Part shown: piece by piece, positions 1 through 60,690 of the stretch
How the letters are laid out: the number at the start of each line of letters is the position of its first letter
How positions within the stretch are numbered: the first letter of the stretch is position 1
NCBI GenBank assembly: GCA_018389105.1
Contig: JACATO010000648.1
Span: forward strand, 2,400,746 to 2,464,745
DNA length: 64,000 nt
Source of the DNA: Nautilus pompilius
Lineage: Eukaryota; Mollusca; Cephalopoda; Nautilida; Nautilidae
Direction of reading: 5' to 3'
The notes under the pieces: model-generated
Databases searched by the model: none
The model's input: only the letters and a program-made list of their open reading frames with translations
What the model was told of the DNA's origin: nothing
Made by a program: the position numbers and the translations under genes

Positions 1-200
1 CAGCAAACTGACTAATAACACTAGGTAACAAAAATTTAGTTAATTTCATTTTTAAACATTTCTCATGGCATTCTGCATGTCAAATACAGTTCCAGCATTG
101 GATTTTGGTAAATGTCAAGCATATTAGAAATAATTATACCATTATAGTTGATAGAATGGGTGCACAATGTGGAACATCCTAAAAATTCCTGGATTTTTTA

Positions 201-290
201 GAACTTTCTAGAATATTCTATCACTTTCTGGAACATTCTAGCTCTTTCTAGAAGTTTCTAAGACTTCCATCCATAAACCAAGGTATATAA
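201..290 (+). promoter_or_regulatory. Heat-shock-element array followed by TATA box
   Basis: From 201 to 260 the sequence is six consecutive 10-bp blocks of the form GAAnnTTCnn. Four blocks keep GAA (201, 211, 231, 251) and two are degenerate (TCA at 221, GCT at 241); all six keep TTC in register. This is the alternating inverted 5-bp unit layout bound by trimeric heat shock factor. A TATA box (TATATAA, 284-290) follows 24 bp after the array, and the first ATG of the decayed gene downstream is at 365. The geometry array-TATA-ATG is that of a heat-shock promoter. Activity is inference; the gene behind it is broken. Confidence 0.7.
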
Positions 291-364
291 ACTCTTGTGC
301 ACACTTAGCCCATATGAAATAAAAGCATTTAACAGGTGATTTTTAATTCTGTTATTAAGTAAGA

Positions 365-2032
365 ATGGCTGCAAATCGGAAATGCAAGCTCTCTGTAGAC
401 TCATTTTGTTATGTTTGTGAATTCTATGACTGCAAGATCACACCGAACAATAAATTTTCACTGGCCTGTGAATCGTACTTTGGAATGAAGATTGGTGATC
501 AAGATAAAGCATGGGCACCTCATGTGGCTTGTGGAACATGCAGATCAGCGCTAGAAGGATGGTTAAGAGATCACAAAGCGATGCCATTTGCTATCCCTCG
601 CATTTGGCGAGATCCTAAGAATCACATAGATGACTGTTACTTTTGTCTAGTGGATGTGTCAAGATTCAGGAACACCAAAAACAGACATGATGTTGTGTAT
701 CCAAATATTCCATCATCCACTGCACCAATTCCACACAATGATGACTTTCCAGTGCCACAGCCACAATCCAAATCCAAAGAAGCAGATTCATCAGAAAGTG
801 AAAATTCACCTGTAGATGAAAACTATGGTTCTGACTTAATTTCAAAGTCTTATTTTCCAAATCAGTAAAAACTGAATGACTTTGTACGAGATTTAGATTT
901 AACAAAATCTAACGCTGAACTCCTTATATCAGGCTGGAAGAATGGAATCTCTTGAATAGCAGTTGTAAATCTACATCTTCCAGAAAGAGCCATGAAAAAT
1001 TCTCAAGATACCTCTCAGCGAATGGCAGATTGTGCTTCTGCAGTGACATTAATAGCTTGTTTTATGAAATGGGTATTATGCACGATCCTACTGAAAGGTG
1101 TCTCTTTATTGACAGTTCGGTGAGAAGTCTCAAAATAGTCCTTCACAATGGAAACAAATATCCATGGATACCCATTGGCCATTCTGTACATATGAAGGAG
1201 GATTATGGAAATGTTAAGTTTCTGCTGGAGAAAATTGACTACAAAAACATAACTGGGATTTTTGTGGAGATTTTAAGATGATTGGTTTTTTGAAAGGACT
1301 GCAAGAAGGGTTCACAAAATACTCATGCTTTCTCTGCCTTTGAGATAGTCGTGCCACATCACAGCATTACAGAAGAGTGGTGTGGCCAGCCAGAGATCAG
1401 TTTATTCCCTGAACATAAAATGAATATGAGCCCTTGGTGAGATCAGAAAACACCCTCATGACTCCACTGCACATAAAACTGGGGCTTCTGAAGCTGGTCA
1501 TTAAAGATCTTAACACAGAAAGTGAAGCATTCCAACACATTTGCGAATTGTTTCCAAATCTTTAAGAAGCAAAAGTAAAAGGTAAGATTTCTGTTGGGTC
1601 GAAAGTTCGTCAAGTGCTCAAATCAGAAGAAAAGATGTCAGAACAAGAAAAACAAATATAGAAGGCATTTTGTTTAGTTGTCAGAAGAAACTTCCTGGGA
1701 AACAGAAGTGAAAAATATATACAATTGATTGAAGATTTAATCAATGAGTGTGAAAAGCTTGGATGCAGAATCTCTCAAGCTTCACGTCCTTTATTCTCAT
1801 CTAGATTTCTTCAAAGAGAACATGGAATATTTCAGTGAAGAGCATGGTAAAGAGATTTCACCAAGACATCCTAACAATGCAAAAGAAATATCAGCAAAGA
1901 TGGGATGTCAGAATGATGGGTGACTATATTGGGGGTCTAATTCGTGGTGACACTTCAATGTATAGAAGTCCGAAAAGTTGTGCAATTTAGATTTTTGCTG
2001 TACTTAATAATTAAATAAATGTAATGAATAAA
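365..2032 (+). pseudogene. Decayed CxxC-rich gene of a repetitive invertebrate family
   Basis: An open frame from ATG 365 to 868 encodes 167 residues with three paired cysteines of zinc-ribbon type (CYVC, CGTC, CYFC) and a serine/acid-rich tail. Homologous-looking coding sequence then continues in shifting frames: 952-1281 is open, and downstream fragments (for example around 1470-1560, 1660-1760 and 1780-1960) still read as protein but are broken by stops and frameshifts. AATAAA signals lie at 2014 and 2027. From memory the sequence resembles a large family of multi-copy uncharacterised proteins seen in arthropods and other invertebrates; I cannot name its function. The copy is dead as a full-length gene, though the first 167 codons are intact and sit behind a heat-shock-like promoter. 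It could be a mobile element cargo or a host multigene family. Confidence 0.75.
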
Positions 2033-2059
2033 CTTTTTTCATGAGTTAAAATGATTTTT

Positions 2060-5000
2060 TTTTTGGTTTGGGAAAAGTTAGTTAGTTGTACCCGTATTAT
2101 CAGTAATGATGTGTTATAAAATGTTTAAAGTAACATTCTGAGTGAAAAACTGACACTTTAGAAAAAACCAGAGTGCTGTTAGTAAGCAGCTCACCAAACC
2201 CGACCATTGCTGGTAGCGGTGGTTAATAGACAAATCAATTTTAAAATTGCATTCATAAGCATTTCTTTTTCCTACTGACTTTGTATAAGCCATGATGGTT
2301 CATCGTAAAAATTGAAAAAGTAATGTGTGCGCTGTTTAGTAACGTATTTGGCTGCACAAAATCTGAGACAGAACTATTCACATGGAACATTATACCATTA
2401 ACACAACTGAAAAATAGATTTATCAGCATTGTCACATCCAATCTCTCAGCAGGATCCTCGTCAGTATTCAAAATTTGGGATCCCCCAGGATGAGGGGGAA
2501 ATGATGCACAACCTTAGTACACCATTGTTTAAGTGAAAAAATGTGTGCTTCACCTGCAAATGACATTTGTGGACAGTGGCCAGTTAATCTCTGCAGTGGA
2601 AGGCCTAGTGTTTCTGGACTAGTCTGCCAGCACCAGATGATGGAATGGCACTTCAGCAATGTATATCCACATTTAACTTCTAGTCCTAAAGGTCAGCAGC
2701 CTTTTTGCTTTATGGAGCAGATATCCTGCAGAAGATATCCACCGGGTCAAAACATCAGAGTTGGCAAGTCTGTCTGTTTTCCATGTCCTGTGGGGTTCAC
2801 TTGTATCTCAACTTAGTCATTGGTGACCATACCACCATGTTAAGTCCAGAAAATTTTGTTTTAAGTTTAATGGTAAAAATAACTGCAAACTGTCATGGGT
2901 TTTCATTTTGTGAATATATAGTGCCAAGGAAGAATAAATGGTATCAATGCCTAATATTTGATCAACTTCATGTTTTCACTGCTCAGCACAAGTTCAAAGG
3001 TGCTGACAAATCCAAAAGATTCTTCCTTCACATGTTGTGATTTTTGTTTATTTCCTTTGTATGTAAAAGTAAAATACAGTCAGCATGTCTTTCATATTGA
3101 AATGTTTTAAGCAATGTCAGCCAGCAACTGCTCACCAAATCTCAGCAGGCTGCCTTTCCGTCAATATTCTTTATCTGCACTTTGTTAACCCACTGAGAAA
3201 TACAAAATATTTATTGACCATTTAATTTTGATCTGTAGCCAAATGCAGGAAGCAATTTTACGATCGCCTGTAATGACACATGGCCAATTCCCCACGGGGC
3301 ACTGAAAATACTGTCCATAAGTTGTCCCCATAACGCATGTTGATGACACAAACTGCACAACTGCTGATGCTTTCAGATTCTTACTTTCCACGCATCACGC
3401 TGAGTCATCTTCAAACGTGCGTGTGTAGCGTTTCTTTTCTAAAATTTTGAGCAAAGTCTGGAGAGTTATAGAGCAAAATGGAAAATTCTGGTTAGCTACA
3501 TCACTTAAATGAGACAAAATTCTGCTTCGTTCGTGCTTGCATCCATAACAAGTAGCTATGCAGAAAACGTAGCAAGATATTCTTCCACATAGTTCATAAT
3601 TATTTCTGCATATGATTTGAAAGCAGATTCACATTTATGTATAAAATTGTGTGTATGTGTGTGTGTGTTGTGTGTGTATATAGACACATACATAATTATA
3701 TTGTGTCAGCATTACAGAATTAAAAATTCCATATCAAGGTTATACTAGGTTTTTTTTAAGTAAATCAGATTTAGAGCTGTCATCCATAGAGGTGATTTTT
3801 TGGGCTTATCAAATTTTAATTTTTTTAAAAGAAATCACGTTTACAATAAATATGAGGATTTAATATAGGATCTGCATTAATCTTAAAGCAAACAAAAAAT
3901 TTGGCTGACATTAGTTTGAAGCGAAAGGGGGTGTTCCATATATCATTTCGCATAATAAAAATTTAATGTAAGGCCGCCATCAATTACAAATAGTCTTTCA
4001 TTTAGAATTTGCATAATAAAAGTTTTATTAGAATTCTAATAATTTCTAATAGGATTGGAATCAATTACATGGGGTTTAGATCCCTTACAAGGCACGAACT
4101 CATGAAGTAACTTTAATATCAGGTTAAAAATTTTTGTTGTACAAAATTCACATCAGTGACTGAGTTTTGTCAGGGCTGATAATCATCAGATAACTTTCAT
4201 ATACGGGCTTACATCGGTGGTTATGTAATTAGTTTCGTACATTTATTTAAGTTAACTTATGATGGGTAGAAACTTGTTTGGCCACTTACCAAGGTATGAG
4301 CAGTTTTTTCACCTGAAGAACCCTTAATGAGATCCCAGGTTGTAGTTTCTTAGTAAACAGTCTGTTTTCATTAAAGCTGCACAGTCAGAGATCAAAGTCC
4401 AGCAATAAGACCAATGGATCATTAGTAACCAGACCGATGGTGGCACAAATATACATTCAACTGTGAGGGAGGAGAAAGTTAATGCGGAGTAGTGGTTTAG
4501 AGAGATAAGACTCTGTGCATTTCACTTTCTTCAGGTTCCAACAACCCAGAAAACAACCCAGTCATTTTTTACACCCTGGCTGCTTTTGATGCGGGGCTGC
4601 ACTTCAGCTGAGGTCGTAAACAAACATCAGTCCAAGGATTTGACTAATGAGACAGAAGTCAGAGAAGGCTTCTCACCAGACCTGTTTAGCTCCACCACCA
4701 ATGGCTGACCATCATTTTTCACTGCGCCCTCTCGGCTTTATCTGTGATGGCTGTCAAAAACTTGGAATACTGGAGCCCCTGATTTATGCTCCGTCTGTCA
4801 GCAAAAATAAATCAGATCTGTGCTGTGATTTTCTGCTGTCACCTGCATTAAGGAAGAAATACGAGAGTCTTCAGTACATGAGAATTTCAGCCTAATGCTT
4901 ACATGGGTGTACAAAGTCTTTGATTGCTAAAAAGCATCCAATTACTTTTGTATTATTTATTTATTTTTTTTTTTCTTTTTATTCTTATTGTAAATGGTTT

Positions 5001-13307: not shown

Positions 13308-13754
13308 TTGATTCAAATATAAACAACTACTTTAATGGATTTCAAAAGGTTTATTTATCTCCCTATAAAAATAGAATATTGCTACTGAAATATACTAATA
13401 TGTGACATAACTGATGTTTTTGTTGGTATTTATCAATACAAAAACATAAATACATTCAGCCATCTTTGCAACATAACAAATAAATAAATCACCAACTGTA
13501 AGATCAGTTCTTGTGTACATATAAACATAAAAACATCTCATACATTATTAGGTCTTTCTTGGTTTTGCATATTGAGTACGACATTTAAACTGAAATGAAA
13601 ATGCAAAAGTTATGGAAATTTCTGAGCCTTCATTAATTTTTTTTGGTAAGATAAAAAATAACTAAAATATCTTAAAAATTTCTATATAAAGTTATAAATT
13701 GTCCCAGATGTAAAGAAAGGAAAGGTCATGTAAATGTAGTGTGTGCATCTTTAT

Positions 13755-14392
13755 TCTGACTCCAATAAATGTTTCCAGCTATGTGAAGCTTTGGTCAGAC
13801 TCCAATAAATGTAGTGTTTCCAGCTGTGTGCAGCTTTGGTCTGACTCCAATAAATGTAGTGTTTCCAGCTGTGTGCATCTTTGATCTGACTCCAATAAAT
13901 GTAGTGTTTCCAGCTGTGTGAATCTTTGGTCTGACTCCAATAAATGTACTGTTTCCAACTGTGTGAAGCTTTGGTCTAACTCCAATAAATTTACTGTTTC
14001 CAGCTGTGTGCATCTTTGGTCTGATTCCAATAAATTTACTGTTTCCAACTGAGTGCATCTTTGGTCTGACTACAATAAATGCAGTGTTTCCAGCTGTGTG
14101 CAGCTTTAGTCTGACTCCAATAAATGTAGTGTTTCCAACTGTGTGAAGTTTTGGTCTGACTCCAATAAATGTAGTGTTTCCAACTGTGTGAAGTTTTGGT
14201 CTGACTCCAATAAATGTAGTGTTTCCAGCTGTGTGCATCTTTGGTCTGACTCCAATAAATGTAGTGTTTCCAGCTGTGTGCATCTTTGGTCTGACTCCAA
14301 TAAATGTAGTGTTTCCAGCTGTGTGCATCTTTGATCTGACTCCAATAAATGTACTGTTTCCAACTGTGTGAAGCTTTTGTTTGACTCCAATG
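13755..14392. repeat. 45-bp minisatellite, about 14 copies
   Basis: A head-to-tail array with the unit TCTGACTCCAATAAATGTAG followed by TGTTTCCAGCTGTGTGCATC and TTTGG. Copies differ at a few sites (GTAGTG or GTACTG or TTACTG; GCATC or GAAGC). The unit is a multiple of three and free of stops in several frames, so long open frames of up to 223 codons arise without being genes. Every copy contains AATAAA, a poly(A) signal on the plus strand. Confidence 0.95.
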
Positions 14393-19000: not shown

Positions 19001-22000
19001 GGGAGGGGGAGAGAATGAGAAATTCAAGAACTAACCAAAAGTGATTTTACTCCACAAAATGTTCAAGGGAAATAAAAGTGCAGCATTCTTGTTGGGGACA
19101 CTGAGGCGCCAATCTCAGATCTGAAGGATGGTTTAAATTTTGTGTGGTTGAGAGGAGACTGGTTTAGCTGAGACAGTCTGAAATACCAAGAAGAAACCAG
19201 GTGCATAGTTTAGAGGAGGAGCAGCAGCAGCGTTGTTTTTTATGTACTGCGTATCGTGTAAATGTTAAAAGATATCATGATGATGATGATGAGAGATGCT
19301 TAAAGGTGTTTGTCAATTTGGTTTTTGGAGAGTTTTGCCCCCCCCCTTTTTTATTTTTCAATGACCCCCCCCCCCCTAATGGTGTTGCTGGCTAACAAGG
19401 TTGGCGCATAACAAACGTTGAATGTTGCCCGCTTTCCTGGGAAAAAGTAGAGAAGTTGACCTCGGTGGATTTAGCATTTTTCAGTATTCGGTGAAAGGCC
19501 AAATTCTGGGGGGGGTGTTGTTTTTTGTTTTTTTGAGGGTTATCCATCATTAAAGAAATAATGTGCAGTTTTAAAATCTTCGGTGATATTGTGTGGACGA
19601 GTTATTTCACCGCAGGCGTAAAGATAGTAGAATCTCAGAGGTGAAAAAAAAAATCAGCTCTTACAAAGCCATGCGCTGCTTAGTGTTTGAGCGATGCAGC
19701 GGTGGATCCTTAAACTTCCACATAGCCGCCGTCTTTGGTGACGCCTACTTACCAAAGTCTTGAACACTTTCCATCTTTTGGGGTGCAACGTGACCGATAA
19801 CTTTTCCACTTCTCGCCCTGTTGATACAATCCAGATTTTTCTGTGGGCTTTAAAATACTTTGTCAACAGCTTCAGTGACCCCTTGATTTACAGAGAGCAT
19901 TTTCTGTCATTATCTGAATCTGTTTCTTTAAACCTTATCTGACTTTTAATGGAGTTGTTTGGTGGTGGATTCTGGTTGTGATGTATTCTAAACTTTCGTT
20001 TTATTGTGGTAACTGCCCGGGCTGGAGTTAATCTACTTAATAATTGTTGCAATTTTGGTTTCACAACGGTCTGAACAACAACAAAAAAGAAGCTATAACA
20101 ATTTTAAGCATGTAGCTTTGTAGTACAATGTGATTTTTTTCTGTCATGTGCAATTATTAAACAATGAAATCCTTCAAACACCTCATAAGTGTGATAGTGT
20201 ACTGACATTTTTAGAAGGATGTTTGAATGTCGTCTGGTTGGGTGGTGTGTTGCTTGAGAAAACTTAGTGCATGTTTTTGTTGCTAACGTTACTGAATTTA
20301 ACACTTTCAGGCTTGTCATGGAATACTTTTCTAAACTGAGAGATGGAAACCCCCATACATGCTGTGGTGGTGTTTCTACCTTCATATATATATATATATT
20401 ATTTCTGCAGATCTCTCTCATAATAATAATTCAAACAAGTGAATTTCTGTGTGATCTGTATGTCGTGTTCTTGTCACTACTACACTGAGGTCTGCGAGGG
20501 AGCCTGGTGCTCAGAGCTTTTGGTTGTCATTGTTGTCATATGCTTCCCAAGCTGCAGGGATTTGTGGATCCCTAAAAGATTAGGGACTGCATGCTTACAT
20601 ACTGTGTGGGTTGCATGACCACTTCTCAGCATGGGAGGAGACGAGCAAAAGTCTCCTAGAAGAAGCCATGCCTGGGAGGTGTATTTCAAATCAAACTGGT
20701 CTCAGCTGAGATTCCGACTTGGGGCCCCCTCAACTTTAACAGTCTAATAACCACCTGACCATGGAGCATGTGTGGTGGCTGGAATGTCTTCCTATTTACC
20801 ATTGGTCATTTAATTGGCTGGTTGGAGGTTAGTAGGGCAGTCTATATGCTATATTGTTGTTGGTCTTTTGCTCTCCTAACCCAGTAAATAAATGCTGAAC
20901 CATTGTCACAACCAATAACAGGCTATTATTTATATATAGTAAACGGATTATTTGCGATGTCAGTTTCTAGTACAAATTTTCTCTGTCTTTTTAGTAAGAT
21001 TTAGTTTTTTGCCACTGCTCTTTTTTGGAAGATGGCTGACCCATTGTGCTCAATCTTGGGAGAAATTTAGGATTCAGTTGGACAGAATGGAATATTTTAT
21101 CCTTCTGTTTCTTAAGGAACCTGGTTTCAGTTCTCATAAGTAGGGGAGATTGTAATACTGTTAAAAGGCCATCCTTGAGTATTTTTGTGCTAAAAATTAA
21201 ATAAAAACACATGTATAGAAAAATGTGTGCATAATCTGTGATGGCTGAAAATTAATGAATATCTGCCCTTAATGCTTAATCTGGATTTATTTTCAAAAAG
21301 CTTCTGGTATTAAGCAGATAATTAGTATTCTGTATAGTTCAGTTTCTGGTATCTGGTGTTGCTTAACTCTCTACAAATTGCTCTTTCTGTTTGATAAATG
21401 TAAGAAAGGACAGAATTCAAAACAGTAGGACTGAAGCAACTTTTTCTCCTCCTTTCAGAATGGTGGGGAGGCAATGACAGCTTCCCTGCAAAACAGCAGT
21501 AACTCTGGTTCTGGGGGGATGACCATCAGAAGGATTACTGGGTTGGACTCTGAAGAGCTCCCTGTTGAGCAGTTGAAAGGAGCAGGTGCCAAAGCTTTCT
21601 ATCATGCTTTGATTGAGAGCAACTTGCAGCTTGTTAAAGAGCAGCTCATCCATAATCCCTCTTTGGTCAATCACATTTTCATAGAAGATTACATCCAGTT
21701 TGGACACAAGGGCTCTGCTGCCATCCATGTTGTATCGAGCATTGGGATTGTGGAGGCTGTGGTTCTGTTGATTGAGTATGGCGGCCAGGCGGATCTACAG
21801 AACAAATCTGGCGACACCGCACTGCACATCGCCTGCAAGCATGCCCATCACAAGTGCGTGCAGCTTCTTCTGGGCTACAAAAATGAGATGAAAGATGCAG
21901 TGAGTAAACACGGGTTGACTCCCCTTCTAAAAGCGATATTTCGTTACCAGCATGAATACAAAGTACGGCTGTACAAAACTGTCAGTCACCTGATCTCTGC

Positions 22001-25000
22001 TGGTTGTGATGTCAACATTTGTTCTGCATTGGACATATCTCCGCTGCACTTAGCTGTTTCAAACAATGATGTTATCTTGTTGAAGCTGTTGATTAATGCT
22101 GGAGCAAATGTAAATGCTGTCTGCAAAAAAGGGACCACACCTTTGCTTGACCTTCTCTATGTGAACTGTGTGAAAACTGCATGTGTAAAGGTGCTTTTGG
22201 ATGCTGGAGCAAGGGTTGATAGTTGCAATCTTGTAGGCCGCACTCCTCTGCACATTGCTGTGTCAAAAAATGACTTTGACACTGTGCTCTGCTTGATAAG
22301 AGCTGGCTCAGACCCCAATAGAATTGACCATTTTGAGGAAACACCTTTGTGGATTGCTGTCCAGGAAGACAACATTAGTATTGCTACGTTGCTGGTGGAG
22401 CATGGCGGCAATGTTAATTATTGCCAGATCAAAACTAAAACTGCACTTGTGTTTATCTCAATCTGTAAACAGTCTGTCAGAATGTTGAACATGCTCGTCT
22501 CTTTTGGTGCATCTCTGTTTGTTGAAGGCTTTCTGGGTCTCTCACCCCTATATTATGCAGTTGAGCTGCAAAATTTGGAAATTATTAAGCTTCTGCTCAG
22601 GGAGAATTGTGAATTGGGCACGCTCAGCAATAAACTCTCTCCCTGCAACCCTCAGAGGCCAATACAGTTGGCCTTTAAGAATGGAAACAAAACTGTGATT
22701 AAGCTACTGTTGTTAGCTGGGTGTTCAGTGGAGGTGCTATGGCTGAGCCCTGGAAATTTACCAGCAGCTCTTGCCAACAACTTGGAACTGCTAGATTGGA
22801 TTCTGCACTATCTCCACACACCTTGCTCTTTGGCTCACCTCTGTAGGTTATTCTTACGAAAATATCTTCGTCAGAATCTTAAGAGTAAACTTCAGCAGCT
22901 CATCACTGAAAATCACCTACCTCAGCGACTTCTCGCTTACATCTTGCTTGCAGACATCTTGTGATTACTTCAAATCTCCATTATTGCTGTCATTTCTCTT
23001 TACACACACATTACACCAAATAAAATGCATAAATGTTGCCTTACTTGGGGAGAAATCTTTCTATATTATGCACATATTTTTATTTATTTACCTTTGGGGG
23101 AAGGTATTGTAGCTTATGCTAATTTGAGCTAAAGATAATTCTAGAACTAAGCTGATATCTGTGTGATAGCATTGATGTGAGTGGTAAGTCAGTTCAGGCA
23201 TGGTAGTGATTTTTGCCATCTTCAAATCAATATGGTATACAACTTTCCCCTCTTTTCCTTCCTTTCAATATTAAAACTAAATCACATTTTGAACTCTTGA
23301 GTTTTGTTTTGATGTTTGTGTTGTTTTTTCCTGTATGTTAATTGATACATTAGGAAAAATTCCTCGTTATCTTTTATTAGGGATATTTTCAAAAACATGG
23401 AAATATTAATTCACTTGAAAATATCATTACAAATGAAAGCAGGATTTGAAAACATCTTCATTAATACAAAAAATATTAAAATACTTAATGTATAAAGCAG
23501 AGTCTCTTCTGCAGCAGAGACTTGTTAAGAAGATAAACTTCAGTTTAATGAAATAGCTTTAAAAATAAAGGAAAAAAGATAGCTTGGTTTTCTGAACAAA
23601 TCAGGAACTTTTAAAAATATTTCCAGTTTGGAATTTTGGACTTCAAGAGAGTAAAATGGGGAAAGAAAAAATATCAGGCAAATAGGAATACCATCTTCCT
23701 GACTAAAACTGGTGGCTGAGCTAATTACCATTAACTGCTGGAACTTCCGTAAATGCTCGCTCGCTCAGCAGCCATTCTGTGAATGGTTTGGGTTTTTTGA
23801 TCAGCGTACTTAGAGTCCTGTCATTGATGGATGAAGGTGGATTTTTCAGCTCTTTGTTTAATCAGGCATTTTTTGTAGTTTGTATGACATCAGTTTTTTT
23901 TTTTTTTACAGAATTAGCCTGCATAGTTTTTCTATACTCTTGTGTGTGTTGTGATTTTTTTTCTTCTATCTGGGTCAAAGGTCAAATGATGACGACTTTA
24001 AAATAAGTCTCTTTAATATTCCTGAGTACAGATCACCCTGGAAATGATGACAACAATGTCTTCAGACCGTGCTCATGTGACCTGACACTACCCACGATCA
24101 CTTCAGAACGTCTGCTGTTGAATACGTACTTCTGGTTGAGTCAGGTGATTTATAAGGTGTTTTTTTTAGAAATCATCTATTCGCATGTTAGATTAGAATT
24201 GTCAGGTTTTATGGTTTTGGTAGACACTAGAGACTTCTGGTGATTACATACTGCTACTGAAGACAAAGGTTGACATACATAACATTAATCTTTATACTCA
24301 TTGAACAGAATTTATTTCTTTTATGATGTTTAAAGTAGTTAACACAGAACTCACTCACTCTCTAAGTCAGTTGAGAAAGTGTCAGTTTGGATATTTCAGT
24401 TGTGTATAATTTGAGGTCTTAGTTCTGCGAGGGTTGGGAGCTCTGACAGAATTCCTCTCTATAATCATCTAGCTTTCAGGTGAAGAGTTAATGGGTAACT
24501 AATCTTCATTGCAGTAGTATGGAATTAACCAGAATGGCTTGGAAACAGCTTGTCAGTACTGCATATTAGCCATGTTTCAATTTGAGTTGGCAACATTGTG
24601 CATGGAAGAAGCTCATGTGCTCAATCTTTTCTGCTAGTAGTAACCATAGTGTCAGTTCACATGATAGGCAATCTGATTGATGATGAGACACTGGTTGTCT
24701 TTGTCTGCCTACTCCATTATTGTTTTCCAAACAGTGATCAGATAGTTGTTTTGCAGAACCATCTTTTGTCACAATCATCTCACCAGGCGGGTTTGCTGTA
24801 GCACTGAGGTGAAATTTGTTGTTTGAAAACCTTGGAAGTTTATCAATAATGTAATGGATACTTTACATCTTTTCTATCAGAATTAATGATACTCTGATGT
24901 ATAATTTCCAGTTGTGTTGTATATCTATCCATCTGTAGTCAGTGCAGTTGGTATTTAACATGTGCCACAGGAATATTAAAACTGCAGATAACATAAAATT

Positions 25001-33535: not shown

Positions 33536-34723
33536 TCAGAGTTCCTCCTTCTCCAGGGGATACTGCAGGCCATACTCCTGCTTGAGGCCGACCAGCACCT
33601 GGAGCGGTCGCCTGGTCAGGTATGTCTGCATCAGCCGTATGATGTCCCTCCTCGGAACCTCCAAGTCCGGGTCGGTGAGGGCGCGCTCGTAAAACTCCAT
33701 AGTTTCCTCTATGGCCTGATGAAGGGGCGTGGGGTTCCAACCCAGCAGGTGGCGCGCCCTCGACGTGTTCAAGGGTCCCAGCTTGACCGAGGGGAAGAGG
33801 TAAACGGAATTGGACGTCCCCGGCTCGATGTCGATGTCGATTTCCGGCAGATTTAGAATGCCCTTCATCTCCGTCAGCAGTTCGTGCAGCGTTGGGGTCT
33901 CGGTAAATGCGAGGTTGAAGGCCTGGTCGCGGATTTCGGGGCCCGCCGACCGACATCGAACTATGACATCCACGATGTCGTTCACGTAGACGAAACTCAG
34001 GGGCTGGGTTAGCAGGAAGCCGGGGATGGAGACGGGTCTCTCGAGGTACTTCCTCAGCTTCATCCACAACTGGTATATCCACAGGCGGTACGTGTTGTCC
34101 CTGGGCCCGATCACGTCTGGCAGGCGGAGGGCGATGTACGGGACCCCTCCGCCCCCCCGTCTCTGGGCGATCAGCGCCTCTTCGCAGGACAGCTTCCTGT
34201 CCCCGTAGTCGTCCTCGGCCGCGTACTCCGCCCTGGTCCGGTCGTCGGCCGGCCGGACCGCGTCGGTCTCCAGCGAGGACCCCGTGTGGTTCTTCGGGCA
34301 GACCTCGTACACGGAGTCGGAGCTGATGAACACGTACAGCCCCACCCGGCCCCGCAGCGCGGACAGGGCCTCGGTGATTTCAAACGGGTGGTAGGCGCTG
34401 AAGTCCACAACCGTGTCGAAGTACACCCCGCCGCCCAGGAAGTGCATGAACTCCGTGCACTTCTGGAGGGACTGCATGCGGTCGCACGCCACGTGGCGGA
34501 CGTGGGGCTTGATGCGCTTGGTCGAGTCCCAGTACCAGTTCCCGCGGTTCACGATTGTAATAGAGTCGCCCAGCTGCAGGAGCCGCTCGACGGTCGCAGA
34601 CCCCATGAACCCATTTCCCCCGAACACCAGGATGTTCGATGGGAGCAGGTCCGACCCTGGTAGACCCACGGGCAAACACAGGCAGCAGGCGAGCAGCACC
34701 CATCCCGCGGCTGAGGGGCCCAT
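33536..34723 (-). CDS. ER-luminal NAD(P)-dependent epimerase/dehydratase (extended SDR)
   Basis: A 395-residue single-exon protein. Residues 1-24 are a signal peptide (WVLLACCLCLPVGLPG). The Rossmann glycine motif GGNGFMG is at 35-41, the catalytic serine region FISSDSVYE at 132-140, and the YxxxK pair as YGDRK at 173-177, so the extended SDR catalytic set is complete. Later motifs ALRLPDVIGPRD and FVYVNDIVDVI are typical of the substrate-side half. Two N-glycosylation sequons (NHT at 145, NTS near 319) fit a luminal protein. The C-terminus is KEEL, an ER-retrieval variant of KDEL as on PDIA4/ERp72. The family includes sugar-nucleotide epimerases and CSP41-like proteins; the substrate cannot be read. 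The gene is much richer in G+C than its flanks. ATG 34723 is the first in-frame Met before the signal peptide. A weak ATTAAA lies near 33371 on the minus strand. Confidence 0.92.
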   Translation of the reverse strand: MGPSAAGWVLLACCLCLPVGLPGSDLLPSNILVFGGNGFMGSATVERLLQLGDSITIVNRGNWYWDSTKRIKPHVRHVACDRMQSLQKCTEFMHFLGGGVYFDTVVDFSAYHPFEITEALSALRGRVGLYVFISSDSVYEVCPKNHTGSSLETDAVRPADDRTRAEYAAEDDYGDRKLSCEEALIAQRRGGGGVPYIALRLPDVIGPRDNTYRLWIYQLWMKLRKYLERPVSIPGFLLTQPLSFVYVNDIVDVIVRCRSAGPEIRDQAFNLAFTETPTLHELLTEMKGILNLPEIDIDIEPGTSNSVYLFPSVKLGPLNTSRARHLLGWNPTPLHQAIEETMEFYERALTDPDLEVPRRDIIRLMQTYLTRRPLQVLVGLKQEYGLQYPLEKEEL

Positions 34724-44450: not shown

Positions 44451-47400
44451 ATAGTGAAAATTTAATAGAGTCGGCTGTAATAAAAACTCGCGGATTTTTT
44501 TAATCTTGAGAGAGAGAGAGAGATGACGTCAGTACAGAGAGATGACGTCAGGACGTCAGTACAGAGAGAGAGAGATGACGTCAGGACGTCAGTACAGAGA
44601 GAGAGAGATGACGTCAGTACAGAGAGAGATGATGTCAGGACGTCAGTATATAGAGAGAGATGACGTCAGGACGTCAGTATATATAGAGAGAGATGACGTC
44701 AGTACAGAGAGAGATGACGTCAGGACGTCAGTATATATAGAGAGAGATGACGTCAGTACAGAGAGAGATGACGTCAGGACGTCAGTATATATAGAGAGAG
44801 ATGACGTCAGTACAGAGAGAGATGACGTCAGGACGTCAGTATATATAGAGAGAGATGACGTCAGTACAGAGAGAGATGACGTCAGGACGTCAGTATATAT
44901 AGAGAGAGATGACGTCAGTACAGAGAGAGATGACGTCAGGACGTCAGTATATATAGAGAGAGATGACGTCAGTACAGAGAGAGATGATGTCAGGACGTCA
45001 GTATATAGAGAGAGATGACGTCAGGACGTCAGTATATATAGAGAGAGATGACGTCAGTACAGAGAGAGATGACGTCAGGACGTCAGTATATATAGAGAGA
45101 GAGATGACGTCAGTACAGAGAGAGAGATATGGTGGTGGTGGGTAATGATTGATATTTTCAAGGATTAACTCCCTTTAAATGGCTTCCAAGTAAAGCACTC
45201 ATTTATTTCCCGTACAATTCCACTGCGGAATAGATATGGTGATAAGGTCAGTCTGTTCCTCACTCGCAGTTCGTATCAGCCTAGCGGGATCGCGTTACCC
45301 TAAGAGCAGAAAGATATGCATTCGTTAAAAACGAACTGGCCCCATCTGAAACAACAAAGAGTATGGTGGTAACTACGTCGTAATTCGAATCATGCTTTTA
45401 GATAATAAAATTATGATGGAAGAGAGACAACTATGGTCGCTTTATTTGCTGGCTGTCTTGAGAATTAATCAATAATTAACGTATTGCGCGAACGTCGGTC
45501 GATAGCACCCTGCATATCTCTGAAAAGTACTGAAAGTAAGATAGATTTTAGAAGGATTCCCGTCATTTCATATTACACTGAATAACCGAGAGATCAATTA
45601 AAATGGGTCCATATTATCCAAGCGCCTTATCACCCTCTGTTACTTGCTTAAGATTAAGTCTAACAACGAGTGGTGTTGGGCCTCACGTCAGACCAACAAC
45701 TCGACCAATTATTTAAAATCTTAGACGGACAACTGAGAACTCACCTGGGGGGCGTTCCCCTGTTAACTGTAAGAGTTCTACGTGCCTGCAACCGTGTGGC
45801 TTGTACCGCTTCCACGAGCCGTTTACTGTGAAGAGGCTTTTGATCGCCGGGTAAGACTTAAAGATGAAAGGAACCCTAACCGCTAGGTGCGAACCCGCGA
45901 TGTCTCGGCAGCTGAGAGGGGGTGCGGCCACCTGTTTGTCGGGATTACGGTCCTCAGGAGAACAGCCTTTTAGGGAAATTACTGTTATTAACAGAGAGCG
46001 AGGGAGACCTTTGAAAGCATTAAGTCCCCTACCTGTCCCCGTCCTTTCGTACATTAAACGTTTTCTATCGGTCGGACCCGAAAACCTACTGCGATCATTC
46101 GAATGTGTTTACCTATCTCGGGTCAGAGTCCGACATGAAAACAGACAGAGCGTTTTCCGGTCCTTTCACTATTTCAAACGCCTCAGCTAAATCTCCGGGT
46201 AACCTCGGATCTTCGATGAGCAAGTTTAGTTGGCGTCTACTTCCTTCGCTTATTTGCTTCCACCAAACCAGTCGATCCGCCCCCAGCTGTTCTAACTCAG
46301 CGAGATGAAGCCACTAAGCGTGGACTGCACCCCGCAAATGAGGTCTAACCAGAGTTTAAGAGATAGGAACGAGAACACCAGGTGTCGTCATTCCAGTAGT
46401 CACTCCCAGAGAAAAACAGGAATTCCGTCCACCCAGCTCTGGCGTGCACTGGGTCCTTGCTAATGTTTAAGATTCGGTTTTAACCCCAGAATTATTAATC
46501 ACAGATCGAAAGCTTATAAGAAATAACCAATTGAAGGTCATTCTTATATCACTAATTTAGAGATCATGTGTGCTTTAATAGACTAGAGAACCCGAAAGAA
46601 TGCCGTGCATCACATTGTCTTCTTATTCTTTGTACTCTTCTTGGCAGAAGAGCTCTGGTTCGCACTGTCTGCACCTATTTTTAAAAGATCGAAAACTCGA
46701 AAAGTACTTTGTCGAACCAAAGTGACGATTTTTATAACGATTGACAACTCGCCTTTACCTGCCTCTTCTACGTCCTTGAAGAACTGCTTGATCTTCTTTT
46801 TCTGCTCGTTCATCGCTTCTCTTTCTTCCATCAGCAGCTTCACCTGCTGATGTTTCTCGTGGTGATTGGGCGGCTGGAAGAACGGCCCGCGGGGCGGACA
46901 CGACAACTCGGTCAACTGACCCTCGCTCGTCCTTCTATAGTACGTGAAGTTTTCGGTCCTTAGCTCCTCTTCCACCTTTTCCCGGGCTTTCTTCCTCCTC
47001 TTCTTCAGAATCGCCACATTGGTCATCGTCCGGTCCGGTCCGGGCTCGACCAAGTCGGACTCGGACGCATGCGGCCGCCTCTCTCGCGCCGCGACCCTGC
47101 TGCCAGTCCTTGTCCCCTTGCCCCTCAGAGCCGCCATGTCCGACTCGGAGACGATCTGGCGAAGCCTCGCGACCTTCTCGCGCCTTCTGCCCGGCGGGCT
47201 CTCGTCTCCGCCATTTGCAAGCCTCGGGAGAACCATTTTCGACTTCAGATCCCTGTCCACCGCCCTCCTCTCTTTCCCCCTTCCGTCCGGAGGCGTCCTG
47301 GAACCCCTCTCGCCGCCCTCGGCACCGTGTGGACAGCAGCCCCTCAGGTTTCCCTGCAGGTAGAGTTTCGGCGGCGGGGCTACTTGGCGCAGCCCGTGTC

Positions 47401-49253: not shown

Positions 49254-49604
49254 GAGAACGCAAAAGAAGACCTACAGAGGCTCGGCAAAATTCTCCGGCT
49301 CCGGACTGTGCGAATATGCGTAGGTGGGCATCATTCCTGCTCGGGTAGCACTTTCGCCCGACATGTCCCGCCTCGGTCTCTCACGATGTCGAGGTGGGGG
49401 GGTTCGTACTTATACTGCAGTTGTTACCGGGACCTCAGGAAGTGGAAAAGCTAACAGAAGGGCCAAATCTGCCCCTAAATTATCTCGGAGTTAGGATCTT
49501 TAATAGCTCAAACGTCGATTTGGAGAAGAGCTTTTCTGGAGTCCACCCCCACCCCCTGGATCTACGGGTACGGATTAGCAGACATCGCACCGGTCATTCC
49601 CATG

Positions 49605-50243
49605 CACCCAAGGATACAGACAGACAGATACAGGTGCTGCACCCACGGATACAGACAGACAGACACAGGTGCTGCACCCAAGGATACAGACAGACAGATA
49701 CAGGTGCTGCACCAATGGAGACAGACAGACAGACACAGGTGCTGCACCAATGGAGACACAGACAGATACAGGTGCTGCACCAATGGAGACAGACAGACAG
49801 ACACAGGTGCTGCACCAATGGAGACAGACAGACAGATACAGGTGCTGCACCAATGGAGACAGACAGACAGACACAGGTGCTGCACCAATGGAGACAGACA
49901 GACAGACACAGGTGCTGCACCAATGGAGACAGACAGACAGACACAGGTGCTGCACCAATGGAGACAGACAGACAGATACAGGTGCTGCACCAATGGAGAC
50001 AGACAGACAGATACAGGTGCTGCACCAATGGAGACAGACAGACAGACACAGGTGCTGCACCAATGGAGACAGACAGACAGACACAGGTGCTGCACCAATG
50101 GAGACAGACAGACAGATACAGGTGCTGCACCAATGGAGACAGACAGACAGACAGATACAGGTGCTGCACCAATGGAGACAGACAGACAGACAAAGGTGCT
50201 GCACCAATGGAGACAGACAGACAGACAAGGTGCTGCACCCACA
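49605..50243. repeat. 35-bp minisatellite, about 18 copies
   Basis: The unit is GGTGCTGCACCAATGGAGAC followed by AGACAGACAGACACA, with ACA/ATA variation near its end, one copy short of four bases near 49755 and one copy with an extra AGAC near 50150. The unit contains no stop codon in any of the six frames, so long frames (203-307 codons) exist on both strands. GGTGCTGCACC is nearly self-complementary. It is a repeat, not a gene. Confidence 0.95.
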
Positions 50244-50907
50244 GATACAGACACACCCTATCTACACTGAGATGGCATGATGGACCAATAAGGACATATT
50301 TGCACATAACTGTATGAAGATTAAAGTCTAAACACAATTAAGTAAAAAAAAAAAAGTCTGTGGCAAAATGAGACATGAAAGATTTGTTTTGGCGGTCGGA
50401 GAGGCATAGCTCTGAATGTCTCGTGCCTGATCAGCTGCCATGGAAGTCAGAGCACCAAGAACGAGCATCTCCGCTTTGTTAAAGTTTTGCCAAAATTTCC
50501 CCAAGTAAATCTAATATTTTTTTTAATGTTCACATCATCGTGTTACGTGTTTACTTGGTTTACTGATCTACAGTTAATGTTCAAAATTTTAGATTTAATG
50601 TTAAACCAGCAGAAAACTAGTTAGTGGTGGGGGAGTTTCTTGTTGGAATAACAAATTTGATTTGCTGCCAAGCAGTAAATCAAGGGAAATAAGTCTCTTC
50701 ACCTTCTGTGACCTTGTTTCCATGAGTTCACTGTCAGGAATATTGTAGTACTATTTCTTTTCTTTTTTAAATATTATTAAACAGGTATAAATTATATTAT
50801 TATTGTTATTCACAAATTTACATTTCTAACTCTAGGTCAGCTTTTAAAAAGAGGTTCAAAAGAGCGAGACGCCGATGAAAAGCTGGCTAAATTTACTCAC
50901 TTTACAG

Positions 50908-59327: not shown

Positions 59328-59466
59328 ATATTCTAGAATAGGCCATACTAGATAATAATGACTCAGAACACTACGGGGTATACTGTGAATATTCTATAAC
59401 ATTCTAGAACATTAGTAAGCATTTCCGAACAGTCCAGAATATTTTCTTGAATATTCTTTTATATAA
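59328..59466 (+). promoter_or_regulatory. Degenerate heat-shock-element array and TATA box
   Basis: After TTCTAGAA at 59331, a 10-bp-periodic array runs 59387-59446: GAATATTCTA, TAACATTCTA, GAACATTAGT, AAGCATTTCC, GAACAGTCCA, GAATATTTTC, then GAATATTC at 59449. GAA is kept in four of six blocks and TTC exactly in two, so it is more eroded than the array at 201-260 but has the same phase. TATATAA follows at 59460-59466, and the piggyBac ORF ATG is at 59561. The array also lies 560-690 bp upstream of the small HSP start on the opposite strand and could serve it. Confidence 0.55.
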
Positions 59467-59560
59467 CTGTCTGGAAACATGTAAAATGTATATATATATA
59501 TATATATACGGAACTTCAACAATATATTTACGTTTGCTTTTCACACATTATATCCAAAAT

Positions 59561-60690
59561 GGCTCATTGAATATTTGATATTTTGCTGAAAGAACTAAGA
59601 AAATATATAAACACTGACAGTGACCCCATCGTTAGCGAAATAGAATCCTAAGCTGCAGATGCTGAAGTTAGTGGCGATGGAGAATAAAAAAACAAACAAA
59701 CCCAGAGTTCTATGTTGGAAGGAATAGAACACACCGAAAGTAAAATCCACCATTTACATCAACAGCAAGCCACGTAATATAATACAGGGTCGTCTTGATG
59801 ATGTGCGCGTTCACGAGCAGCTGAGTCAACCATCGATCGCTAACTTATGGCCTTTTCATCGATGACAAACTCATCCAGCTCACGGCGGACACCACTGACA
59901 AACAAACTGAAGGTCTGAAGACTGTAACCAAGTCATGAACAAAAAAGCAAAAACAGATTCTGTTGAGATAAAAGCCTTTGTTGGATGGCTTCTTGCAGCA
60001 GGACGTCTGAAAGCCAACCACCTCAATTACCAACTTCTCTGGAGTCGAAAGTATGGCCTACCTTCGGTTCAAGATTTTCCTTTCCGCAAAGAATCTCGTA
60101 CTGAAAGGCACAGACATGATCGGGATGGCGTTGGTACAGACCTTAAGAATACGTAACGATTTAAGTCTCTTTTCGCGGACAGTACCAGCCTTCTATACCC
60201 GACAGTTACAGGAGAAAGTATTCTGGATATATGCTACACGAAAACATTCTATCCTCTTAAAGACAAGATATGCAACATGGCACCCAATTTGCAACTAGTT
60301 TCAAATTCTTCAATGTTGAAATATGCAGATCATTTTTATACCAAAGGAAGAACTTCTTCCAAACGGACACCGGCAGCTTCACGGCCCCATTTCTCAGATT
60401 TTAAAAAAGGTTATATGCTCGTCTCGTCGGGTAGAAGAACTTGTATCCTTTCTGTCAAGTATCCGCCATGATGGAGACATCGGTGTTGACGACGACGACA
60501 AACCAGATATCAATTAATTTTAAAACCAAACGAAGAGCGGCTTGGGTTAGCTCTGGATTAATGGGGGTACTAGACATGCATAACAAAACGACAAGCCGAC
60601 AAATGACCTTCGACTCCTTTCGTGTTGTTGGTTTCTTTCTTTTTTGCAATTTTTTTGGGATATTGCTGAAGTAGCATCACTTGTTGTGTA
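59561..60690 (+). pseudogene. PiggyBac-type transposase, decayed
   Basis: ATG 59561 is followed by an in-frame TGA at codon 4 and the coding sequence continues in three frames. Recognisable piggyBac pieces in order: the FIDDKLIQLTADTT-like start of the catalytic region (about 59850), VEIKAFVGWLLAAGRLKANH (59960-60020), a WIYAT...FYPLKDKI piece (60220-60270), HGPISQILKK and FLSSIRHDGDIGVDDDDKPD (60380-60510), then NQTKSG and a DIAEVASL tail (60530-60690). Order and spacing follow the family; many stops and frameshifts show that it is dead. PiggyBac elements insert at TTAA; the ends of this copy could not be fixed. Confidence 0.85.

Follow-up and report, generated by a model that had tools for sequence, protein, structure and literature searches.

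Heat-shock elements at the probable transposase promoter of a decayed DNA transposon family in Nautilus pompilius suggest that it was once switched on through the host heat response

At the left end of a 64,000-bp stretch of Nautilus pompilius DNA (the window; contig JACATO010000648.1, positions 2,400,746 to 2,464,745), an array of heat-shock elements and a TATA box stand in front of a decayed gene. Which kind of gene would carry such a promoter, and what would the array do there? The preliminary description had counted six GAAnnTTCnn blocks with ten of twelve HSF units exact, and this was confirmed. Positions 201–258 (+) hold 12 five-bp units whose orientation alternates; 10 are exact and two carry mismatches (TCA and GCT), which gives a score of 32 of the 36 fixed positions of six GAAnnTTC blocks. 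The best scores in 100 simulated 64-kb windows of the same dinucleotide content (Markov-1) had a mean of 21.8 and a maximum of 24, and in the real window the reversed pattern, used as a control, topped out at 24. Away from the neighbourhood of the array, the sole higher-scoring stretch of the window was that at 59387–59456 (29/36). A chance origin of the 201–258 array is ruled out by its score of 32 against the simulation maximum of 24. Degenerate blocks flank the exact array on both sides. TATATAA follows the array as had been described, but at 25 bases beyond the last exact unit instead of the 24 bp given, and the ATG of the window copy lies 3' of it, at 365 (Table 1).

The gene behind the array can be assigned to a DNA transposon of the cut-and-paste type with terminal inverted repeats (TIRs). 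When the source genome (728 Mb, 2558 contigs) was searched with the 167-aa open reading frame (ORF), at least 153 matches of at least two kinds were obtained: one with approximately 51–87% identity, many of them with stops, and a subfamily with approximately 42–46% identity and mostly long open frames. The decayed copies of the family are approximately 2.2 kb long. Homology starts at approximately positions 11–19 in most copies and stops at approximately 2207 of the window copy, which lacks approximately 60 bp, including the right inverted repeat, relative to other copies. Many copies have inverted repeats at both ends, of which the window copy keeps only that on the left. The inverted ends of the family (CACTAGGTAACA.../CACAGTGTAACA...) are of the CACT type (CACTAGG/CACAGTG), and the right ends of other copies are the imperfect inverse of the left end (CACTAGGTAACAAA versus CACAGTGTAACAAA). 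The flanks differ among copies and are usually TWA. In 14 of the 16 copies with TWA at both ends the same W stood on both sides (by eye), although 11 of these 14 matching pairs are TAA, so that part of the agreement is expected by chance; the tally left out 11 copies, in which a flank was not TWA (8), the ends were shifted (2), or no clean right end was present (1). A 3-bp TWA target duplication is probable for the family, with moderate support.

These inverted ends and probable TWA duplications, together with the genomic matches that include a related subfamily, bear out the earlier view of the gene as mobile or multi-copy rather than a chaperone. The view that it is decayed also held: the ORF at 365–868 was confirmed, and from its end to approximately 1990 the frames are broken; three fragments there (952–1281, 1434–1565, and 1835–1990) resemble, by eye, segments of the 556-aa protein encoded by open copies. 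With its right end missing and its reading frames disrupted, the window copy is dead. No Pfam match was found for the 167-aa ORF, and the 556-aa protein of two open copies matched neither a Pfam model nor a PDB entry; no transposase domain was recognised in it with Pfam, and no Transposase_21-type protein (the CACTA/En-Spm model, PF02992) was present among its Pfam matches up to E 5. We infer that the family protein is a transposase. A chaperone gene was rejected as an identity for the gene, with no chaperone match for either the 167-aa ORF or the 556-aa protein. In viral contigs no relative of the family was confirmed in a search with two short peptide patterns. Elsewhere in the window are two likely host genes, encoding an ankyrin-repeat protein with a SOCS box (21480–22961, +) and an NAD-dependent epimerase-like protein (33536–34690, −), and long tandem arrays of 45-, 54-, and 35-bp units at 13740–14391, 44511–45131, and 49603–50253.

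Table 1. Coordinates of the array-bearing elements in the window, and family copies that carry a common internal deletion.
Feature	Position	Strand	Basis
Decayed DNA transposon copy	15–2207	+	Homology to other genomic copies; flanks differ between copies
TAA beside left end, probable 3-bp target duplication	16–18	+	TWA flanks in other copies; right partner lost
Left terminal inverted repeat CACTAGGTAACAAAAATTTAG	19–39	+	Imperfect inverse CACAGTGTAACAAATTTTC at right ends of other copies
Degenerate left extension of array	171–200	+	Scoring starts at 171–191 give 29–31/36, partly via the exact array
Heat-shock-element array, six GAAnnTTCnn blocks	201–258	+	10/12 units exact, 32/36
Degenerate last block GACTTCC	262–268	+	GAACTTTC in majority of aligned copies
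TATA box TATATAA	284–290	+	TATAWA 79–82 bp before ATG in 28/41 copies
5' part of transposase-like ORF, 167 aa, CxxC-rich	365–868	+	Genomic matches; no Pfam family
Rest of gene, broken by stops and frameshifts	869–1990	+	Fragments resemble open-copy protein
Second heat-shock-element array	59387–59456	+	29/36
TATATAA behind second array	59460–59466	+	Window sequence
Decayed gene of second, perhaps piggyBac-like, transposon	59550–60560	+	13 genomic matches; PF13843 only at E 0.2
Copies with 1319/1753 deletion	L009, L014, L015, L016, L017, L019, L021, L025, L026, L027, L032, L037, L039, L041, L042, L047		

The preliminary description had proposed a search for the array upstream of other copies, and it was found there, in the corresponding position ahead of the same TATA box. 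The region scored in each of 41 copies was the 450 bp between 500 and 50 bp upstream of the ATG. Thirty of these (L005–L034, the window copy included) had been picked by protein similarity alone and form the unbiased set; the other 11 had been fetched for their perfect three-block element and form the biased set. The window copy apart, 25 of 29 unbiased copies scored at least 24/36 and 16 of 29 at least 28, the remaining four having weak arrays (21–23/36). A cluster of heat-shock elements in the element's own promoter and common to its copies, as in HSF-responsive mobile elements, is thus present in these 25. Among 820 shuffled upstream sequences, one reached 24 and none reached 26. TATATAA is retained in 18 unbiased copies, and in ten of them a gap of 15 bp separates it from the last exact GAAnnTTC; in the remaining eight the gap is 14–64 bp or no exact pair is left. 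The array can accordingly be regarded as belonging to the transposon, and many relics keep intact heat-shock elements.

Genome-wide counts gave a similar distribution. The perfect GAAnnTTCnnGAAnnTTCnnGAAnnTTC was found at 16 distinct places in the 728-Mb genome (18 matches per strand when overlaps are counted, versus 0 for the reversed control), and family copies lie downstream of 11 of them, which makes rewiring of the host heat response by relics directly testable. With one mismatch allowed there were 172 matches per strand versus 1 in the control. The first 50 sites listed of these 172 formed 44 clusters, 32 belonging to the family (27 at known copies and 5 identified as family after fetching) and 12 not. 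From the latter, 11 were fetched (L044, L045, L046, L049, L050, and L074–L079; C96:370123 was left out), two of which (L044 and L049) are one duplicated segment. Beyond repeat matches of 33 bp (L078) and 53 bp (L046), none of the 11 had homology to the family. L046 (2525–2590; G000:C960:361936–361983) contains the longest perfect array seen outside both transposons (35/36). The combination of TTCTAGAAnnTTC, 10–40 bases, and TATATAA gave 71 matches versus 8 in the control. As a repeated genomic feature, this layout is mostly that of the transposon: judged by linker similarity, 59 of the 71 matches (53 loci) have the family linker, and the remaining 12 are close to the control count.

HSF genes are present in the host, and heat-shock elements stand at two of three of its hsp70 promoters. 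HSF-type DNA-binding domains were found at three places in the genome. In the hsp70 promoters examined, four exact units precede a TATA box in L062, a partly degenerate element (26/36) stands approximately 60 bp before TATAAA in L059, and no heat-shock element is present in L066; the window array, at 32/36, outscores all three (26, 19, and 17). For molluscan-type haemocyanin, 14 matches to PF14830 were found in the genome, seven on each of two contigs. We consider it likely that the array and TATA box formed an HSF-driven transposase promoter of a TIR DNA transposon, which would have been stress-induced while the element was active. Under heat or other protein-damaging stress, host HSF would bind the tandem units, occupying adjacent units beside the TATA box in the manner of hsp70. 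Initiation at this TATA box, 15–25 bp downstream of the array, would then lead to production of the transposase under stress. The lineage would have expanded, produced internally deleted copies probably moving in trans, and then decayed. HSF binding, heat induction, and stress-timed transposition are predictions for the family drawn from its sequence, which suggests a transposon once switched on via the host heat response. A real alternative, although an unlikely one, is that HSF drove the promoter in the germline or during development and not in response to heat. A transposon gains only from germline expression, and the three matches to the HSF domain in the genome would also fit such use, but arrays of such length are typically found at strong inducible promoters.

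The distribution of the array within the transposon bears on another reading. CACTA/En-Spm transposons carry subterminal repeats that are bound by their own transposase, and the array could be of this type, its likeness to HSF sites being incidental. The CACT-type ends, the variable number of units, and the distance of approximately 180–240 bp from the left end agree with this. However, the array was absent at 36 of 36 right ends (15–20/36), among them the truncated end of the window copy, the position of the array is tied to the TATA box, and it was also missing from a sister subfamily that has ends of this type, so that we regard subterminal repeats as an improbable explanation. A 37th right-end region (L073) scored 28/36, the left array having been brought close by an internal deletion. 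The sister subfamily has approximately 43% protein identity to the window family and open frames. All six of its open-frame copies (L051–L056) scored 17–19/36, which is background, over the 600 bp that precede the start codon, and in at least two of them, L055 and L056, the left end (ATTACACTGGTCAACAAG) resembles in type that of the array-bearing copies. The upstream regions of five piggyBac loci, a small control in which three loci are near-identical and two are without a sure start codon, scored 18–20/36. The array as a general feature of transposon promoters is disfavoured by this control. From these scores, one subfamily probably acquired the array or else the other lost it, and the change affected only the promoter end. 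The two subfamilies offer a natural comparison with and without the array.

Median pairwise identity was 83% among array-bearing copies (435 pairs) versus 96% in the open-frame subfamily (15 pairs), and on this measure the array-bearing subfamily is the older. As the window copy is dead and the array occurs in one subfamily only, the heat-shock claim concerns a once active ancestor and not the window copy. One internal deletion junction (window 1319/1753) is common to 11 of the 30 unbiased copies, and because they have this one junction in common, the internally deleted copies were probably mobilised in trans. The deletion was seen in 16 fetched copies, which keep the array, TATA box, and right end and represent a non-autonomous derivative. 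L073 (G000:C320:1731400–1732100) is a short derivative in which the 5' part (to approximately window 424) is joined to the right end (from approximately 2095), with the array, promoter region, and right inverted repeat kept.

Within the arrays, the main base was kept on average at 0.72 at the six GAA/TTC positions versus 0.54 at the four spacers (221 blocks). The blocks were cut by a fixed phase from a right-hand anchor, independently of score, in 28 of 30 copies (L011 and L019 are without the right anchor). Since phase slips in some copies blur the two values, this retention lends modest support to selection on HSF contacts.

A comparable layout was found at the second array of the window, which the preliminary description had not mentioned. 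The family behind it is rare, and it is perhaps piggyBac-like; the label is weak because it follows the look of the fragments and the marginal Pfam value, and none of the 13 places of the family was among the matches listed in a genome search with PF13843. Seven relatives were fetched (L080–L086). In three of them (L081, L082, and L083), four or five exact alternating units lie at most 50 bp upstream of a TATA-like sequence. L085 contains a 27/36 stretch, and its three exact units stand further upstream; in L080, L084, and L086 there are never three exact units in a row. The motif plus linker of this family occurs at five genomic places, two of which are L081 and L083 (control, 0), and the spacers of its arrays differ from those of the first family. 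We tentatively raise the possibility that two unrelated DNA transposon lineages, one CACT-ended and the other perhaps piggyBac-like, independently acquired transposase promoters made of an HSF array plus TATA, and that heat once drove bursts of both. If so, ready-made heat-shock promoters would have been spread in large numbers through the genome by two kinds of transposon.

The concern in the preliminary description that the periodicity might be that of a minisatellite, here a neutral one of period 10 resembling heat-shock elements by accident, was right as to length, which ranges from two or three blocks (some copies) to 20-bp units extending over hundreds of bp (L021 and L023), and as to the Tandem Repeats Finder call (10- and 20-bp periods), but such an origin is very improbable, for the array keeps its fixed place before TATA and its GAA/TTC positions, is absent at right ends and in the sister subfamily, and recurs in a second family with the same layout and other spacers. 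Both transposase-binding repeats and a passive minisatellite are therefore less likely, given the TATA-tied place, the absence elsewhere, the GAA/TTC retention, and the second family.

The idea that stress induces transposition is old, yet few mechanisms for it are clear in animals. The array described here stands before a transposase-like gene, is kept across old copies, is absent in a sister subfamily, and scores above the three host hsp70 promoters examined. Helitrons are rolling-circle elements without terminal inverted repeats, ONSEN is a copia LTR retrotransposon, and DIRS-1 of Dictyostelium is a tyrosine-recombinase retrotransposon with a heat-shock promoter. The mollusc family resembles DIRS-1 as a mobile element with a probable heat-shock promoter and differs from it in kind. 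Its ends, which begin CACTA/CACAG/CACTG, and its probable 3-bp duplication recall CACTA/En-Spm (CMC) elements, whereas its 556-aa protein matches no Pfam model. The best animal case that we found in the literature is that of the nematode Helitrons (PMC6927752). In Caenorhabditis, Helitron1_CE carries tandem heat-shock elements before its transposase gene (14 before F33H12.6); HSF-1 binds there, heat shock induces the element, and relics have spread heat-shock elements through the genome (Garrigues et al. 2019, PMC6927752). ONSEN of Arabidopsis, a heat-driven mobile element, is also named there (PMC6927752). In Cryptococcus, the TCN3/TCN12 LTR elements are described as having one or two putative heat-shock elements in the promoter region and heat-linked mobility (PMC12810828). 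A review lists satellites, telomeres, and SINEs as non-coding HSF1 targets, and a term search of its available text gave neither Helitron nor DNA transposon (PMC9032817). A Nematostella preprint discusses heat-shock elements and cites the Helitron work (PMC13104882), and the accessible portion of a paper on hsp70 clusters contained nothing on transposon heat-shock elements (PMC3071340).

No TIR DNA transposon with a heat-shock-element array at its transposase promoter was found in the open-access literature searched, and on that basis what is new would be the presence in a TIR transposon of an HSF-driven promoter comparable to those of Helitrons and ONSEN. With ONSEN the mollusc family may share the use of the host heat response, although ONSEN is a plant LTR retrotransposon. 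With TCN3/TCN12 it shares putative heat-shock elements in the promoter of the element, but those are fungal retrotransposons with one or two such elements. Helitron1_CE is likewise a DNA transposon with a heat-shock-element array at its own transposase promoter, and the layout works in Caenorhabditis; it differs as a rolling-circle element of a nematode for which binding and induction are known, whereas the mollusc family is a TIR transposon known from sequence alone.
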